Source of the DNA: Microbacterium sp. LWH7-1.2
GTDB lineage: Bacteria; Actinomycetota; Actinomycetes; Actinomycetales; Microbacteriaceae
Direction of reading: 5' to 3'
Assembly: GCF_038397755.1 (NCBI RefSeq)
Contig: NZ_CP151637.1
Coordinates: 1,116,001 to 1,180,000 of the forward strand
DNA: 64,000 nucleotides
The notes beneath the pieces were generated by a model. The model did no database searches. It was not told the DNA's origin and was given only the letters and a program-made list of their open reading frames with translations. The position numbers were made by a program, and so were the translations under genes. Each line of letters opens with the position of its first letter. The first letter of the stretch is position 1. This document shows, piece by piece, positions 1,352 through 50,099 of this stretch.

Positions 1352-2103
1352 CGGCCTCCCTGGTGTTGCTCGCGATTGTGGGGCCAGTGCACAGCTCACC
1401 AGCCTCAGATTGTTCGGGGTCTAGCGCTTGGACCTACTGCGAGGTAGACAACAGCGGGTCGAGCGTCAGCGTCGGCGCGGGCAAGTCCCAGCCCGGCAAG
1501 GCGACGAACAACGAGCCCCGATCGAACTCTGGCGCCGCTCCCGCGCCCGAAGCCCCCACCGAGCCCGAGGACTGCGGTCCGCTCAACCGCTGCGAGACGT
1601 ACGTCGTCGCCGGCCCGCCTGACGTGACCCTCGCCGACCTCGCCTCCTTCCGGCCCGCGCAGCCGACGCTCGCCGGAGAGCCCGCGGGCTTCGGCGTCGT
1701 CGGAATGCCGACGAACCTGCTGGCGTCGGCATCCGAGCAGCTCATCCCGGGCACCGTCCTCGGGTGGGACGTGACCGTGCGCTTCGTCCCGGTCGCCTAT
1801 GTGTTCGGCAACGGCGATGGCACGACAACGCGTGCGACCACCGGCGGCACGTCGTGGGCGGCCCTCGGCCAGGGGCAGTTCACGCCGACCGCGACGAGTC
1901 ACGCATACCGGGCCCGTGGGACGTACCCGGTCTCGGTGACGGTCGAGTACGAGGCCTCCGTCGATTTCGGCAGCGGCACCTGGCGGCCCGTGCCCGGTGT
2001 GGTGCGGGCCCAGGCGGCCGGCTACGGCGTGCGCGTCGTCGAGGTGCGCACGGCGCTCGTGGACCGCACCTGCGTCGAGGATCCGACCGGCCCAGGCTGC
2101 TGA
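1339..2103 (+). CDS. secreted PKD-like domain protein
   Basis: The protein has 254 residues. An N-terminal hydrophobic segment (residues 2-17) acts as signal peptide, then comes a low-complexity Ser/Gly/Pro stretch, then a region from about residue 120 with the layout of a PKD fold: FGNGDG, a strand, HAYRARGTYPVSVTVEY, and more strands. PKD domains are extracellular beta-sandwiches for protein or carbohydrate contact. Paired cysteines (for example CGPLNRC) suggest disulphides. It overlaps the preceding lipoprotein gene by 13 bp and its 3' end overlaps the convergent DUF6716 gene by 82 bp. The GTG start has no clear ribosome binding site, which fits coupling to the upstream gene. The exact role is unknown. 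Confidence 0.7.
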   Translation: MQLVAASLVLLAIVGPVHSSPASDCSGSSAWTYCEVDNSGSSVSVGAGKSQPGKATNNEPRSNSGAAPAPEAPTEPEDCGPLNRCETYVVAGPPDVTLADLASFRPAQPTLAGEPAGFGVVGMPTNLLASASEQLIPGTVLGWDVTVRFVPVAYVFGNGDGTTTRATTGGTSWAALGQGQFTPTATSHAYRARGTYPVSVTVEYEASVDFGSGTWRPVPGVVRAQAAGYGVRVVEVRTALVDRTCVEDPTGPGC

Positions 2104-3374
2104 ACGGCGCCCGCGATCGAGCGGCGCGCACGATTCGTCAGCCGCACCACCTCGCGCAGCGGCACGCCGACGGCGTAGGCCACAGCGCCCGATGCGGACG
2201 TGTCGCTGCGGCCGAGGGCGACCTTGCGCTCCCACGCGTCGCGCAGCACACCGCCACGGCGAGACACCGGCGCGCGGGGCGGCAGCCGCCCCGCCGAGCG
2301 CTGCGCGAGCAGCGCCTCGACGTGGGCTGTCCAGTCGTCGGCCTCGGGCGCATGGAAGTAGTTCTCGTCGAGCCACTCGGGATCGGGGTGCCTGAACCGG
2401 CGCGCGACGACGTCGTCCTCGCTCGCGAGCAGGTCGGCGTCGGCGAGCGTCTCGTTGATGAGGCGCGGCGAGACCCCGAACGTGTCGAGTGCGATGACGG
2501 GGATGCCGCGGGCGATCGCCTCGATCGCCGCCGTGGAGCTGACGGTGACGAGGCCCTCCGCGGTGTCGAGCGCGGCGCCCATCGACCCGGTCGAGGTCAC
2601 GAGATTCCGCGGCAGCGGGCCGAGCGAGGCGAGCAGCTCGGGGTAGCCGTCGAGCTCGGCGTGCGTCTGGTGCTCGCCCGACGCGGCCCGGAGCTTCACG
2701 ACGACGCGCCGCGACGGATCCGCCTCGGCCGCCCGCACGAGCATGCGCGCGACGCGCAGCCGGTCCTCCCGCCCTGCGGGCACCTTCGCCTGCGTGGCGA
2801 ACACGAGGTCGGTGCCGTCGGCGTCGGGGCGGGCGCCTCCGCAGGCGGTCACCGCGCCGCGCGCGAAGGGCAGCGTCGCCAGGGCGTAGCGGTGTGCGTA
2901 GCCGGTACGGGCAGACAACGCGCCGAACTCGCGCACCTCGCGGCGCGAGTGCACCACGAACAGGTCGGACTGCAGCCGGTAGACGACGGCTCTGCGTGTC
3001 GCGGGGATCGAGATGCCGGGAAGCCCCGTCACCACGACGGGGCGCAGAGCGAGTGCGGCAAGGTCGCGCGCGAGCACGCGCACGAGCGGACCGCGCGCGC
3101 CGATCACGACCACCTCTGCGCGCAGTTCGGCGAGGCGGGCCGCCAGGCCGGGGTAGGCGATCCGCTCCACGCGATCCCGCGCCAGCCCGCTTCCCCTGAG
3201 CGCGGAGTCGAGCTGGGCATCGCTCACCACGAGCGGCGTGTCGAGCACCAGGAGCGAGGCATCCCATCGCTCTCCGACACTTCCGAGCAGTGCCGCCGCC
3301 CACTTCACGTAGGAGTCGGTGTCGGCGATCGCGACGACCCGCGGCCGCCTGCCTTCCGTCGCGTGCGCACTCAC
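2022..3374 (-). CDS. DUF6716-type putative glycosyltransferase
   Basis: This 450-residue cytosolic protein ends the nonulosonic acid operon. It begins with a Rossmann-like strand and turn (VVAIADTDSYVKWAAALLG). Its C-terminal half carries SSTAAIEAIARGIPVIALDT, a pattern shared with GT-B enzymes of the capsule and polysialyl or CDP-glycerol transferase type, where the SST-E loop binds the nucleotide sugar. I recognise it as DUF6716, a family that sits beside NeuB genes in Microbacterium. A CMP-nonulosonate transferase is a reasonable inference, not shown. The GTG start at 3374 overlaps the neuB stop (GTGA). The last 82 bp overlap the convergent PKD gene in antisense, which is unusual. Confidence 0.8.
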   Translation of the reverse strand: MSAHATEGRRPRVVAIADTDSYVKWAAALLGSVGERWDASLLVLDTPLVVSDAQLDSALRGSGLARDRVERIAYPGLAARLAELRAEVVVIGARGPLVRVLARDLAALALRPVVVTGLPGISIPATRRAVVYRLQSDLFVVHSRREVREFGALSARTGYAHRYALATLPFARGAVTACGGARPDADGTDLVFATQAKVPAGREDRLRVARMLVRAAEADPSRRVVVKLRAASGEHQTHAELDGYPELLASLGPLPRNLVTSTGSMGAALDTAEGLVTVSSTAAIEAIARGIPVIALDTFGVSPRLINETLADADLLASEDDVVARRFRHPDPEWLDENYFHAPEADDWTAHVEALLAQRSAGRLPPRAPVSRRGGVLRDAWERKVALGRSDTSASGAVAYAVGVPLREVVRLTNRARRSIAGAVQQPGPVGSSTQVRSTSAVRTSTTRTP

Positions 3375-4243
3375 GCGGGGACGCGGCGCAGCTTCGCCAT
3401 GGGCGCGAGTTCGCCCGGGTACACGCGCTTGACGCCGTCGCCGAGGGCCGCCTCGATCACGCGGATGTCGCGCACCAGGTGCTGAAGGCCCGCCGGCTCG
3501 AGCGACGCGGCGTGGTCCGAACCCCACATCGTGCGGTCGAGCGTGATGTGCCGCTCCACCGCGACGGCGCCGAGGGCGACGGCCGCGAGCGAGATCTGCA
3601 GACCGCGCTCGTGGCCCGAGTAGCCGACCGGCACACCCGGGAAGCGGTCGCGCAGCGCCGGGATCATGCGCAGGTTGGCCTCCTCCGGTTCCATCGGGTA
3701 CGTCGACGTCGCGTGCATCAGCACGAGGTGATCGGTGCCGAGGATGTCGATCGCGGCGTCGATCTGCTCGATCGTCGACATGCCGGTCGAGAGGATCACC
3801 GGCTTGCCGGTGTCGCGGAGCGCCTGGAGGAGCTCGACGTCGGTGAGCGAGGCCGATGCCACCTTGTGTGCGACGACCCCGAGGTCCTCGAGGAAGGCCA
3901 CGCTCGGCACGTCCCACGGCGACGCGAACCACTCGAGGCCGCGGAGCAGCGCATGGTCCGAGATCTCGATGTACTCCTCGCGATCGAACTCGACGCGCCG
4001 ACGGTAGTCGAGATACGTCATGCGGCCCCACGGGGTGTCGCGCGGCATGTCGCGCATGTGCTCCGGAGTGGCGATCTCAGGTGTGCGCTTCTGGAACTTG
4101 ACCGCGTCCGCTCCGGCGTCGGCCGCCACGTCGATGAGGCGCTTGGCGATGTCGACGTCGCCGTTGTGGTTCAGCCCGATCTCGGCGATGAGGTACGCGG
4201 GGCGTCCTCCCCCGACGACGCGGGATCCGATGGTGACGGTCAT
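3371..4243 (-). CDS. neuB: NeuB-type nonulosonic acid synthase lacking the SAF domain
   Basis: NeuB family enzymes condense phosphoenolpyruvate with a hexose or hexosamine (ManNAc, or a 6-phosphate) to make sialic acid-type sugars. The 290 residues cover the TIM barrel: AEIGLNHNGD near the start, VKFQKRTPE, STGMSTIEQID, the HATSTYP region, VGYSGHERG, and GSDHAASLEP near residue 255. Typical NeuB proteins are about 340-350 residues because a C-terminal antifreeze-like SAF domain contributes to the partner's substrate site. This one stops just after the barrel (LAPMAKLRRVPA). It shares ATGA with the upstream gene and GTGA with the downstream gene, so it is the third gene of a tight operon. The substrate cannot be told from sequence. 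Confidence 0.9.
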   Translation of the reverse strand: MTVTIGSRVVGGGRPAYLIAEIGLNHNGDVDIAKRLIDVAADAGADAVKFQKRTPEIATPEHMRDMPRDTPWGRMTYLDYRRRVEFDREEYIEISDHALLRGLEWFASPWDVPSVAFLEDLGVVAHKVASASLTDVELLQALRDTGKPVILSTGMSTIEQIDAAIDILGTDHLVLMHATSTYPMEPEEANLRMIPALRDRFPGVPVGYSGHERGLQISLAAVALGAVAVERHITLDRTMWGSDHAASLEPAGLQHLVRDIRVIEAALGDGVKRVYPGELAPMAKLRRVPA

Positions 4244-5502
4244 GAGGCCTCCTGTGGTGCGGTGGGGTGATCGGATGCGGTGACTCGCACCGGCGCGACG
4301 GCGGGGCGGAGCGTGTCGGCCACGGCCGTGGCCGATCTGCCGGTGAGCACGCGCTCGGCGAGGTCGCGCACCGCGCCGGCGCCGCCAGGGTGGTCGAGCA
4401 CGACGCGCGCGGTGGACAGGACGAGGGGGTGCGCGTCGGGCACAGCGATGGGCCAGCCGACCATCTCGAGGCACCCGAGGTCGTTGACGTCGTTGCCGAG
4501 GTACGCGATGCGCGAAAGCGGAATGCCCCGCTCCCGCGCCCACTCGCGCAGCACCGCCGCCTTGTCGGCCGCGGCCTGTCGCACATCGACGCCGAGCTTG
4601 CGCGCACGGGCCGCGACGACGGGGTTCGCCTCGGTCGAGAGGATGAGGAAAGGGATGCCGCCGGCCCGCAGCATCCCCACCCCCATGCCGTCCGATCGGC
4701 TCACGGTGACGGATTCGACGCCGTTCTGGTCGACGTGCACGGTGTCGTCGGTGTGCACGCCGTCGAAGTCGGTCACGACCGCGTCGACGGGGATCGCACC
4801 CGCGTGGGCGCCGAACGAGTCGCGGTCGACCAGCGGCGCGAGCGTGCGCGCGAGCTCCAGCTCGTCGAGCGTGTCGATCTCGATCGCGGTGCGCGGGGCG
4901 ACCTCGGCGATGCCGACGCTGCCGAAGAAGCGGTGGTTCGCCGCGCGGAAACCCGCCGCCCGCATGACGTAGAAGCCGCCCGTCTCGAGGTAGTGCGGTT
5001 CGCGCTCCTGCCGGCGCGGGCGCACGTCGATCTCGTGGTTGACGGGCTCGGCCGCGCTGCCGACGCCCTTCTCCCACAGGAAGCCGTACGTCTCGACGGC
5101 CGAGAAGACGCTGTCGCGCCGTCGCGAGCGCACGAGCTGCACGGCCGCGGTGAGGGCGTCGACGTCGATGAACGGCGAGGTGGCCTGCAGGAACGCGAGG
5201 ACGCCCACGTCGACCTTGCGCGCGTCGAGCGTGTCGAGGGCGTGCACGAGCGCGCTCTCGCTGCTCGCCAGGTCGCCGGAGAGGTCCGCGGGTCGCTCGA
5301 CGATCTCCGCCCCCCATTCGGCGGCGACTGCGGCGATGTCGGCGTCGTCGGTCGTCACGACGACGCGGTCGATCGCGGGACAGCGCCGCGCCGCCTCGAC
5401 CGCACGCGCGACGAGCGGGACGCCGCCGACGCGCTGCAGGTTCTTGCGCGGCACGCCCTTCGAGCCGCCGCGGGCGGGGATGACGGCGACGACCTCGCTC
5501 AT
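4240..5502 (-). CDS. neuA: fused CMP-nonulosonate cytidylyltransferase and KdsC-like HAD phosphatase
   Basis: The protein has 420 residues in two parts. Residues 1 to about 225 are an acylneuraminate (CMP-sugar) cytidylyltransferase with the nucleotide-binding start IPARGGSKGVPRKN, the VVVTTDD strand, the LQATSPF motif and EIDTLDELELA near the end. Residues from about 240 onward are a HAD phosphatase of the KdsC type: DFDGVHTDD (catalytic Asp pair), LSTE (motif II), a lysine in DKAAVLREW, and LGNDVNDLGC (metal-binding motif). One polypeptide can therefore dephosphorylate a nonulosonate phosphate and activate the sugar with CTP. The start at 5502 overlaps the previous stop by ATGA, and the stop overlaps the neuB ATG. 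Confidence 0.9.
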   Translation of the reverse strand: MSEVVAVIPARGGSKGVPRKNLQRVGGVPLVARAVEAARRCPAIDRVVVTTDDADIAAVAAEWGAEIVERPADLSGDLASSESALVHALDTLDARKVDVGVLAFLQATSPFIDVDALTAAVQLVRSRRRDSVFSAVETYGFLWEKGVGSAAEPVNHEIDVRPRRQEREPHYLETGGFYVMRAAGFRAANHRFFGSVGIAEVAPRTAIEIDTLDELELARTLAPLVDRDSFGAHAGAIPVDAVVTDFDGVHTDDTVHVDQNGVESVTVSRSDGMGVGMLRAGGIPFLILSTEANPVVAARARKLGVDVRQAAADKAAVLREWARERGIPLSRIAYLGNDVNDLGCLEMVGWPIAVPDAHPLVLSTARVVLDHPGGAGAVRDLAERVLTGRSATAVADTLRPAVAPVRVTASDHPTAPQEAS

Positions 5503-6410
5503 GCCGCCGCCGTCCGGGCCGAGCGGCGCACGCGGCCGGTGTGCACGGTCGCTCCCGTGCCTGCGAGTACCAGCGGGAGTGTGGTCGTGGTGCTCGACGG
5601 CAGCGTGTGCACGTCGAGCGGCCCCCGAGCCCCGGCGAGCACGAGCTCGACGGGCAGTCCGGTCTGGTGGATCCGCAGCTCCGGCGCGGTCGCGACGGCG
5701 TCCAGCTGCTCCGCCGTCTCCCGGCGGTGCGGGAGGTACACGGCGCCTCCGGCAGCGGCATCCCGCGCCCATCGGACGTAGTCGAGCAGCAGCATCCGTC
5801 CGTCGACCGGCAGCGCGCTGCCGAGCACGACCCGGCGGCCGAGTCCGGGCGCGGGAGGCGCGCTCTGCCGAGTCCACGAGAAGTCGTGGCGTCGGATGCC
5901 GAACCCGTGGTCCGCGAGTGCGTCGAGGCGGTCGGCGCCGAGGTCGAACGCGGTGAACATCCCCGCTCGCCGCGCGGTCGCGCGGCGGTGGACGAGCTCC
6001 GCGGCGAACGGGGCGACGAAGGTGGTGAGTCCGCGCTCGTCGATGCTCGGGCGCGCGTAGGGACGCCGGCCGAGGAGCGTGTCGGCGTATGCGATCGCGT
6101 GGGCGCCGTCATCGAGGAAGGTGATGCGGTGCGGGCGCAGGACCGCGGCGGCGAGCCGGAACTGGCCCGAGAAGCCGTCGCCGACGAGCCAATGGCCGTG
6201 GCGGGCGAGCAGGCTCCAGGGGATGCCGAGGTAGGGCTCGAGCGCGCCGAAGCGCGCGCCGCGCGACAGCAGCACGTCGGCGGTGGCCGAGATCTGCGGG
6301 GTCAGCCGGCCGGCGACCGGAACGGTCGTCCTGTGGGCGGCCGCCCACTCCGCGGCGCCGACGAGCTGCAGCGGCGACTCGACCCACGCCAGCACGTCCT
6401 CGCGACCCAT
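5499..6410 (-). CDS. putative polysialyltransferase-like protein, first gene of the nonulosonic acid operon
   Basis: This soluble 303-residue protein has no signal peptide or membrane segment. Its start, WVESPLQLVGAAEWAAAH, resembles the SPLQL opening of polysialyltransferase or GT52-type sialyltransferases. An FLDDGAHAIAYAD stretch near residue 100 recalls the acidic DDG/DEG motif of those enzymes. This family link is pattern recognition and needs a profile search. Its place ahead of the CMP-sugar synthetase and NeuB supports a role in transferring the CMP-activated sugar. A strong ribosome binding site (AAGGAGG) lies 7 nt before the ATG; the other three genes rely on 4-bp overlaps, so translation of the set starts here. 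Confidence 0.7.
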   Translation of the reverse strand: MGREDVLAWVESPLQLVGAAEWAAAHRTTVPVAGRLTPQISATADVLLSRGARFGALEPYLGIPWSLLARHGHWLVGDGFSGQFRLAAAVLRPHRITFLDDGAHAIAYADTLLGRRPYARPSIDERGLTTFVAPFAAELVHRRATARRAGMFTAFDLGADRLDALADHGFGIRRHDFSWTRQSAPPAPGLGRRVVLGSALPVDGRMLLLDYVRWARDAAAGGAVYLPHRRETAEQLDAVATAPELRIHQTGLPVELVLAGARGPLDVHTLPSSTTTTLPLVLAGTGATVHTGRVRRSARTAAA

Positions 6411-6424: not shown

Positions 6425-6635
6425 CCGGCTGTGCCTCACGATCGGGCTCAGCGCTGTCTGCCCACGGTGGGCGCCCGACGTGAACGCGATGGGTCCTGGC
6501 GTGGGGCCGGTGCCGGTCCGGTAGGTGAACGGCGGGTAGCGGGGCACGGCACGTCGCGGCCGCCATCCCCCGACGACGAGCCGACGCGTTCCTGCGCCCG
6601 GGGTGCACGTCGGCGGCGCATGCCAGGATGAACGC

Positions 6636-7559
6636 GTGACCGACCGCCTGATGCTGCTCGACTCCGCGTCCCTGTACTTCCGCGCGTTCTACGGGGTGCC
6701 CGACACCGTGCGCGCCCCGGACGGGACGCCCGTCAACGCGGTCCGAGGCTTCCTCGACATCATCACGCGGCTCATCACGACCTACCGTCCGACGCATCTC
6801 GTGGCGTGCTGGGACGACGACTGGCGACCGCAGTGGCGCGTCGAGCTCATCCCGACGTACAAGACGCATCGCGTCGCCGAGGTGGTCGCCGGCGGACCCG
6901 ATGTCGAAGTGGTCCCCGATCCACTCGAAGTGCAGGTGCCTGTCATCCGCGAGGTGCTCGACACACTCGGAATCAGGATCGTCGGCGCCGCGGCCCACGA
7001 AGCCGACGACGTCATCGGCACCCTCGCCACCACCGCGACCATGCCGGTCGACATCGTCACCGGCGACCGCGATCTGTTCCAGCTCGTCGACGATGCGCGC
7101 GACGTCCGGGTGGTCTACACCGCACGCGGCATGAGCAACCTCGAAGTGCTCACCGACGCGTCCGTGGTCGCCAAGTACGGCGTGCTGCCGTCGCAGTACG
7201 CGGACTTCGCCACACTCCGCGGCGACTCGTCCGACGGCCTCCCCGGCGTCGCCGGGATCGGTGAGAAGACCGCCGCCGGGCTCCTCGCGGCCCACGGCGA
7301 CCTCACCGGGATCGTCGCCGCGGCCGAGCGCGGCGAGGGCATGTCCGCCGGCGTGCGCTCCAAGGTGCTCGCCGGGCTTCCTTACCTCGCCGTCGCTCCG
7401 CAGGTGGTGGCCGTCGTCCGCGACCTCCCGCTGGACGTGCCCGACCCCCGCCTGCGCCCTCTCACCGAGGAGGGCAAGACGGATGCCGCGTCCCTCGCCG
7501 AGCAGTGGGCACTCGGTGCGTCGATGAATCGCATCGTCGACGCCCTCGACACGGTCTGA
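6636..7559 (+). CDS. 5'-3' exonuclease, PolA N-domain family
   Basis: The 307-residue protein is a stand-alone relative of the 5'-nuclease domain of DNA polymerase I, which removes RNA primers and flaps. It shows LMLLDSASLYFRAF at the start (first metal-binding Asp), VACWDDDWRPQWR, the arch-region YKTHR, the acidic cluster AHEADDVIGTLA and VTGDRDLFQLVDD, and the helix-hairpin-helix stretch GDSSDGLPGVAGIGEKTAAG. Length matches stand-alone actinobacterial homologues. I chose the GTG at 6636, which begins VTDRLMLLD; a GTG-less extension upstream to 6603 has no support. CAGGAT precedes it by 6 nt, and AGGA could serve as a weak ribosome binding site. It is divergent from the glycan operon. Confidence 0.9.
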   Translation: MTDRLMLLDSASLYFRAFYGVPDTVRAPDGTPVNAVRGFLDIITRLITTYRPTHLVACWDDDWRPQWRVELIPTYKTHRVAEVVAGGPDVEVVPDPLEVQVPVIREVLDTLGIRIVGAAAHEADDVIGTLATTATMPVDIVTGDRDLFQLVDDARDVRVVYTARGMSNLEVLTDASVVAKYGVLPSQYADFATLRGDSSDGLPGVAGIGEKTAAGLLAAHGDLTGIVAAAERGEGMSAGVRSKVLAGLPYLAVAPQVVAVVRDLPLDVPDPRLRPLTEEGKTDAASLAEQWALGASMNRIVDALDTV

Positions 7560-49558: not shown

Positions 49559-49667
49559 GATCGTCGCCTGGCGGTCCTGGTCCGTCGGCCCTGATCCCCA
49601 TCCGCTCCGACCTGGCGCCGGGGAAGTGGCGTCAGGGCACGAGCAGCTGGGAGTCACGGCCGAGGGC

Positions 49668-50099
49668 TCAGAACAGGCCCGGAATCACCTCCTGCTCCAG
49701 CTCGGCGTAGCTCTCTTCGTTGGCCTCGGCGTAGGTGTTCCACGCCGTGGCGTCCCAGATCTCGGCATGAGCGCCTACGCCGGTGACGACGAGGTCGCGC
49801 TCCAAGCCGGCGTATGCGCGCAGCGGAGGGGGGATCGTGATGCGGTTCTGACTGTCGGGCTTCTCGGCGCTCGCGCCCGAGAGGAACATGCGCAGGAAGT
49901 CGCGCGCCTGCTTGTTCGCGAGCGGCGCCTCGCGGATGCGGTCGTGCACCCGCTCGAACTCCTTCTCGCTGAACACGTACAGGCAGCGATCCTGTCCGCG
50001 CGTCACGACGACACCCCCACCAAGGTCGTCGCGGAACTTCGCCGGAAGGATGACGCGCCCTTTGTCATCGAGCTTGGGTGTGTGCGTGCCCAAAAGCAT
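49668..50099 (-). CDS. mraZ: MraZ, transcriptional regulator of the dcw cluster
   Basis: MraZ is a small AbrB-like DNA-binding protein that binds repeats in front of its own operon and represses it. The 143 residues have the two family motifs: [19 protein letters not shown] near the start and [18 protein letters not shown] near residue 85. The length is typical when starting at the ATG at 50099 ([12 protein letters not shown]). It leads the dcw cluster, with three 10-bp spaced repeats upstream. Confidence 0.96.

Follow-up and report, generated by a model that had tools for sequence, protein, structure and literature searches.

In Streptomyces coelicolor, the genes SCO4873-4882 were reportedly described by Ostash et al. 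in 2014 as a teichulosonic-acid cluster. A passage in PMC13011467 places the teichulosonic-acid genes SCO4873-4882 under the control of PhoP, and the polymer itself is characterized in excerpts of two reports as phosphate-free and composed of galactose and the nonulosonic acid Kdn (3-deoxy-D-glycero-D-galacto-non-2-ulosonic acid; PMC7831098, PMC11481543). The route from mannose-6-phosphate via Kdn-9-phosphate to the activated sugar cytidine monophosphate (CMP)-Kdn has, according to a passage of PMC6200933, been shown in Prymnesium, with a Bacteroides phosphatase, and is cited there for Bacteroides. Here we describe a cassette of four genes, A to D, from Microbacterium sp. LWH7-1.2, which is located in a stretch of 64,000 nucleotides (positions 1,116,001 to 1,180,000 of contig NZ_CP151637.1), hereafter referred to as the window. 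We consider it likely that this cassette makes Kdn or a closely related deaminated nonulosonic acid and installs it in a phosphate-free acidic wall polymer, a teichulosonic acid, and that it is probably induced by PhoP. Beyond the initial annotation of the window, the present analysis relates the cassette to the Streptomyces locus, identifies Kdn-type residues, describes a transferase gene that is exchanged between loci and points to a likely control by phosphate.

In the proposed pathway, C would condense mannose-6-phosphate and phosphoenolpyruvate to Kdn-9-phosphate, the phosphate would be removed by the HAD half of B, and the NeuA half of B would convert the resulting sugar into CMP-Kdn. 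Kdn would then be transferred from CMP-Kdn by A, while D may contribute the other sugar of the repeating unit or form the second linkage. Transcription would probably be switched on by PhoP at low phosphate. The first three of these predicted steps are the same as those in the Kdn pathway of Bacteroides thetaiotaomicron, which consists of a Kdn-9-phosphate synthase, a phosphatase and a CMP-Kdn synthetase, and the Bacteroides phosphatase has a Glu/Lys pair in common with B. However, the phosphatase and the CMP-sugar synthetase are fused in the Microbacterium cassette, whereas the three Bacteroides proteins appear under separate accession numbers in a passage of PMC6200933.

The cassette and its counterpart in Streptomyces

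Genes A, B, C and D follow each other in this order with 4 bp shared at each junction (ATGA, ATGA and GTGA; Table 1). The initial annotation had placed the cassette at positions 2022 to 6410 with 4-bp overlaps, and both ends as well as all three junctions agreed with the open reading frame (ORF) calls. It had also identified B as a fusion protein, C as NeuB and D as a DUF6716 protein, in agreement with our Pfam profile searches: B matched CTP_transf_3 (6e-23) and had a C-terminal HAD-type match, C matched NeuB PF03102 (3e-80) and was the sole NeuB match found in the genome, and D matched DUF6716 PF20471 (3e-125; 418 bits against a cut-off of 27).

Homologues of all four genes were found together, in the order D-B-C-A, in six Streptomyces-type loci. 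Like the window cassette, these loci combine NeuB, NeuA-HAD, DUF6716 and A-type genes, the gene set by which we recognize a teichulosonic-acid cluster of the Streptomyces type. The genus of these loci was assigned from protein A of locus L176, which shares 98% identity with a Streptomyces protein of known name, and from a shared genus code. In one locus of another family all four homologues were accompanied by an extra DUF6716 copy; L180 lacked A but had B, C and D, and in L175 only D was present. The gene order in L176 is a GT2 gene on the opposite strand, D, B, C, A, an M20 peptidase gene and a Bmp gene, and M20 and Bmp genes presumably also follow SCO4882 in S. coelicolor. From this order we infer that D probably corresponds to SCO4879, B to SCO4880, C to SCO4881 and A to SCO4882. 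A first numbering, in which A was SCO4879, was dropped since the GT2 gene lies beside D and the M20 gene beside A. The GT2 neighbour in L176 fits SCO4878, a glycosyltransferase in a passage of PMC2267785, and the same passage lists SCO4880 as a transferase and SCO4881 as a polysaccharide-biosynthesis protein, which fits the mapping. In contrast, a table excerpted from PMC8269224 places a 'sialic acid synthase' at SCO4880, which conflicts with C being SCO4881.

The NeuB proteins of the Streptomyces loci are 65-67% identical to C. On the other hand, the gene order differs (D-B-C-A versus A-B-C-D), the A proteins are only 28-31% identical, and the GT2 and acyltransferase neighbours of L176 were not seen among the ORFs scanned beside the window cassette. 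The cassette looks like a local version of the Streptomyces wall-polymer gene set, and so of a known kind. It had initially been read as serving a wall polymer, and this reading appears to be the best supported one, by way of the four homologues standing together in Streptomyces; the product in Microbacterium would correspond. Conceivably, the product could be no repeat of a wall polymer but instead cap the ends of a different surface glycan, a capsule or a glycoprotein. Given its small size, protein A could attach just single residues, and a Pfam scan of the four flanking ORFs (134-529, 824-1351, 1339-2103 and 6603-7559) revealed no export or ligation gene. The homology to the Streptomyces teichulosonic-acid locus argues against such a cap, as do the PHO-like sites described below, which fit the replacement of phosphate-rich wall polymers as it is presented in excerpts of the literature, and we regard a cap as distinctly improbable.

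Table 1. Genes of the cassette and repeats upstream of it, in window coordinates
Feature	Position	Strand	Description
gene A	5499..6410	minus	303 aa; putative CMP-nonulosonate transferase, family not catalogued (ORF and invariant residues)
gene B	4240..5502	minus	420 aa; N-terminal NeuA-type CMP-sugar synthetase and C-terminal HAD phosphatase, nearest to the Kdn-9-phosphate type (E291, K302)
gene C	3371..4243	minus	290 aa; NeuB-family synthase, SAF domain not detected
gene D	2022..3374	minus	450 aa; GTG start; DUF6716 protein, putatively a glycosyltransferase
PHO-box-like direct repeat CGCTACCCGCC GTTCACCTACC	6520..6541	minus	lies 131 to 110 nt upstream of the A start
second half-site GTTCACGTCGG	6475..6485	minus	starts 45 nt downstream of the first GTTCACC

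Conservation of the core and exchange of gene A

In the survey of the family, 150 genomes were searched, including our own, and 44 matched D. Neighbourhoods were retrieved for 40 of them, leaving out our own genome, G066 (an 8.4 kb contig) and the weak matches G016 and G097. In addition, 80 named loci were kept out of 537 relatives, the named relatives being nearly all Microbacterium. As the loci come from related species, the resulting counts are not independent. The initial annotation had proposed a check of whether the four genes stay together in Microbacteriaceae. Indeed, 39 of the 40 family neighbourhoods had B, C and D as a core on a single strand, the exception being L034 with a partial C before D, and the three genes were together in 79 of the 80 named loci. 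Because of this constancy, the arrangement is not due to chance. Gene A, however, was present in only 9 of the 40 neighbourhoods and in 33 of the 80 named loci. In a sample of the phylum comprising 296 genomes, for which 9 of 13 genome places worth retrieving were taken, DUF6716 was above the cut-off in 12 genomes, all of them among the 47 with a NeuB match; no case of DUF6716 without NeuB occurred in this sample. A search of the open-licence literature retrieved nothing on DUF6716. Single loci departed from the common layout: in L116, A adjoins C and B was not found in the stretch, and in L179 and L180 a second, divergent DUF6716 copy lies beside the core. Unexpectedly, the Escherichia coli control genome also gave a PF20471 match over the cut-off, while the family was otherwise seen here in actinobacteria.

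The patchy presence, with D matched in 44 of 150 genomes, would also be expected of a degraded or silent remnant. This is very improbable in view of the intact overlapping frames, the conserved upstream repeats and the catalytic positions of the HAD phosphatase, which were kept in 111 or 112 of 112 B homologues.

When A is missing, its place is commonly taken by another gene. Of the 47 named loci that lack A, 43 carry a polysialyltransferase-type gene that is codirectional with B and terminates 0 to 254 nt upstream of it, and in 42 of the 47 it is itself preceded by a GT2 gene. None of the 33 named loci with A contained a polysialyltransferase-type gene. All 13 polysialyltransferase-type proteins that were scanned matched PF07388, with a best E of 4e-18.

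The active site of one bacterial polysialyltransferase, the Mannheimia enzyme MhPST, has been described. A passage of PMC5517516 assigns Glu153 of the D/E-D/E-G motif as the base, Glu323 to the ribose, His291 of the HP motif together with Ser339 to the phosphate, and Gln41 and Gln44 to the vicinity of the base; both motifs are also described in an excerpt of PMC2169525. Protein A itself gave no Pfam match at an E of 0.1 and no NCBIfam match. Across 51 homologues, 19 of which were retrieved using the Streptomyces protein as query, Q15, D100, D101, G102, H228, E255 and S272 were invariant. The invariant DDG and H228 resemble the D/E-D/E-G and HP motifs of GT-B sialyltransferases, but with HR in place of HP. 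A has D/E-D/E-G, His, Glu and Ser in common, and in the same order, with the GT38/PF07388 polysialyltransferases and the GT52 sialyltransferases. The His-Glu and Glu-Ser spacings are 27 and 17 residues in A, compared with 32 and 16 in both MhPST and the PF07388 proteins that replace A. Protein A carries, invariant and in order, most of the bacterial GT-B sialyltransferase active-site set. In a Monte Carlo simulation the pattern arose in 0 of 20000 trials with both shuffles, a result of little weight as the tolerances were chosen post hoc.

Common descent of A with the polysialyltransferases was not supported by any profile method. A is shorter than the GT38/PF07388 and GT52 enzymes and has no significant profile similarity to them. 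PF07388 was not among the family matches listed for the 51 homologues, PF07922 appeared in three (best E 0.12), and the commonest match, MeaB (5 of 51; best E 0.0074), looks like noise. Profile comparisons of D with the polysialyltransferase-type proteins and of A with D gave no match, and PDB profile searches at E values up to 10 returned nothing for A and three chance-level matches for D. The initial description of A as polysialyltransferase-like is in line with the active-site pattern and with the exchange for PF07388 proteins, but not with any family profile.

Evidence bearing on the sugar

The HAD half of B was aligned with PDB entry 3e81. Although 3e81 and 4hgq are labelled in the PDB as acylneuraminate cytidylyltransferase, we take them to be the Bacteroides Kdn-9-phosphate phosphatase in its wild-type form and as the E56A mutant. 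The Glu that is mutated to Ala in 4hgq is Glu in B as well (E291), and the Lys 11 residues further on is likewise Lys (K302). In the Bacteroides enzyme, this Glu/Lys pair presumably has the numbers 56 and 67, and we assume that it sets the specificity. Among the 112 B homologues with a HAD half, E291 and K302 were each kept in 110. In 3mn1, a phosphatase of the YrbI family, these positions are occupied by Arg and Ser. Furthermore, the best HAD-type NCBIfam model for B, although below its cut-off, was that of Kdn-9-phosphate phosphatase (HAD type C0), NF058599.

The supply of precursors was consistent with this. The genome contained no match to PF02350, the NeuC/WecB epimerase family, and none to NanE (PF04131). 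A single match to the catalytic domain of type I mannose-6-phosphate isomerase (PMI; PF20511) was found in the genome, although PF01238, the 48-position model of the PMI C-terminus, was not matched. The earlier remark that the window holds no NeuC can thus be extended, for PF02350, to the genome assembly, and the accompanying suggestion of a precursor from central metabolism fits the Kdn-9-phosphate-type phosphatase half, the missing epimerase match and the isomerase match. The chemistry, as judged from the Glu/Lys pair of the HAD half, the lack of NeuC/WecB and NanE matches and the PMI match, points to Kdn.

Alternatively, the same kind of wall polymer could carry an N-acylated sialic, legionaminic or pseudaminic acid. 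The best NCBIfam names, both sub-threshold, were PseF for B and NeuB_NnaB for C. In addition, 13 of the 39 family loci having B encode a B without the HAD half (L035, L039, L040, L042, L046, L050, L055, L059, L062, L063, L066, L067 and L068), as expected of non-phosphorylated routes. However, the epimerase and NanE families were unmatched in the genome, and PseB had only two distant, sub-threshold matches (40.2 and 26.1 bits; cut-off 407.75). A Pfam scan also found no SAF domain in C, and it is the SAF domain that contacts the N-acetyl group in Neisseria NeuB. Lastly, the excerpts of PMC7831098 and PMC11481543 name Kdn as the nonulosonic acid of the S. coelicolor polymer. An N-acylated product is on balance unlikely, and Kdn remains the product that we favour. 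The HAD phosphatase seems to have been lost or unlinked repeatedly among the family loci. In L060 and L061 the two halves of B align as separate matches.

Upstream repeats and genomic context

A PHO-box-like direct repeat precedes gene A (Table 1). Its second unit is perfect in the first seven bases, while the first unit is weak (3/7). The pstS-type gene of the same genome is preceded by GTTCACCTTCC GTTCACCCGCA, a GTTCACC direct repeat with an 11-nt period. To score such repeats, two 7-mers 11 nt apart were compared with GTTCACC, with a maximum score of 14. Among the 34 A-type upstream regions, 33 scored at least 10 and 18 at least 11, compared with 8.3% and 1.3% of 4000 control stretches of 230 nt, and 24 of the 34 had a GTTCAY pair at 44 or 45 nt. 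All nine A-type loci of six other genera scored at least 11 (260 nt), as did 36 of 42 polysialyltransferase-type loci, whereas this score was reached by 2.3% of 4000 control stretches 400 nt in length. Cleaner controls were provided by the antisense strands and by the regions before gene R, where 0 of 34 and 0 of 21, respectively, scored at least 10. The 230 nt before C, which were intended as a control, were not clean: 43 of 80 scored at least 10 and 19 of 80 contained GTTCACC. These high scores hint at a second, internal box, which may lie between B and C in the polysialyltransferase-type loci, the subtypes being pooled in this count. The GTTCACC repeat, as found before pstS, precedes both types of the cassette, which makes control by phosphate starvation plausible.

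Several observations weigh against the proposal of a PhoP-induced Kdn polymer. The repeat in the window scores only 10 of 14, a value matched by 8.3% of the controls; eight loci from other families, including six of the Streptomyces type, gave no score of at least 11 within 500 nt upstream of D; and GTTCACC on its own is also present upstream of gene R in 9 of the 21 loci. As to the enzymes, B reached 90.7 bits with NF058599, which is below the cut-off of 180 and barely above the 83.9 bits for KdsC. C scored 259.5 bits with the NeuB equivalog TIGR03569, where 399.65 are needed, and was also under the NCBIfam cut-off for PseI. The phosphatase-less B proteins mentioned above indicate that the phosphorylated route is not universal to the cassette. 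Protein A has HR where the polysialyltransferases have HP, and a profile-profile comparison with the proteins that replace it was not significant (E 0.094, probability 0.6%), the aligned stretch of this non-significant match covering the D-G motif. Finally, searches of the open-licence literature on Kdn, nonulosonic acid or the gene names in Microbacterium brought up nothing on this cassette and no chemistry of the organism.

On the plus strand, the ORF at 1339-2103, which has a weak, sub-threshold PKD-domain match, is convergent with D and overlaps its 3' end by 82 bp. In L102, L108, L111 and L115, homologues of this ORF and of 824-1351 are located upstream of A, between an exonuclease gene and the cassette, whereas in the window both lie downstream of D. 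In 9 of 41 loci (L035, L038, L040, L041, L043, L046, L052, L057 and L063), the core is followed downstream by a gene whose translation resembles, as read by eye, an LCP wall-polymer ligase, and the LCP family has three matches in our own genome. Elsewhere in the window, an mraW RNA motif was detected at 49572-49672 on the minus strand (60.8 bits).

More broadly, and with somewhat more doubt than confidence, we propose that A is the first member of a CMP-Kdn transferase family not yet catalogued, which is exchanged for PF07388 polysialyltransferases before a constant B-C-D core, that the whole module is a programme induced by phosphate starvation and replacing phosphate-rich wall polymers across Microbacteriaceae, and that DUF6716 is the shared polymer-building glycosyltransferase of actinobacterial nonulosonate polymers. 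With the cassette, a wall-polymer pathway known genetically from Streptomyces would be extended to genera of the Microbacteriaceae, Microbacterium among them, and the functionally unassigned A and DUF6716 families would gain a testable role. The wall of these bacteria would be predicted to change under phosphate shortage.

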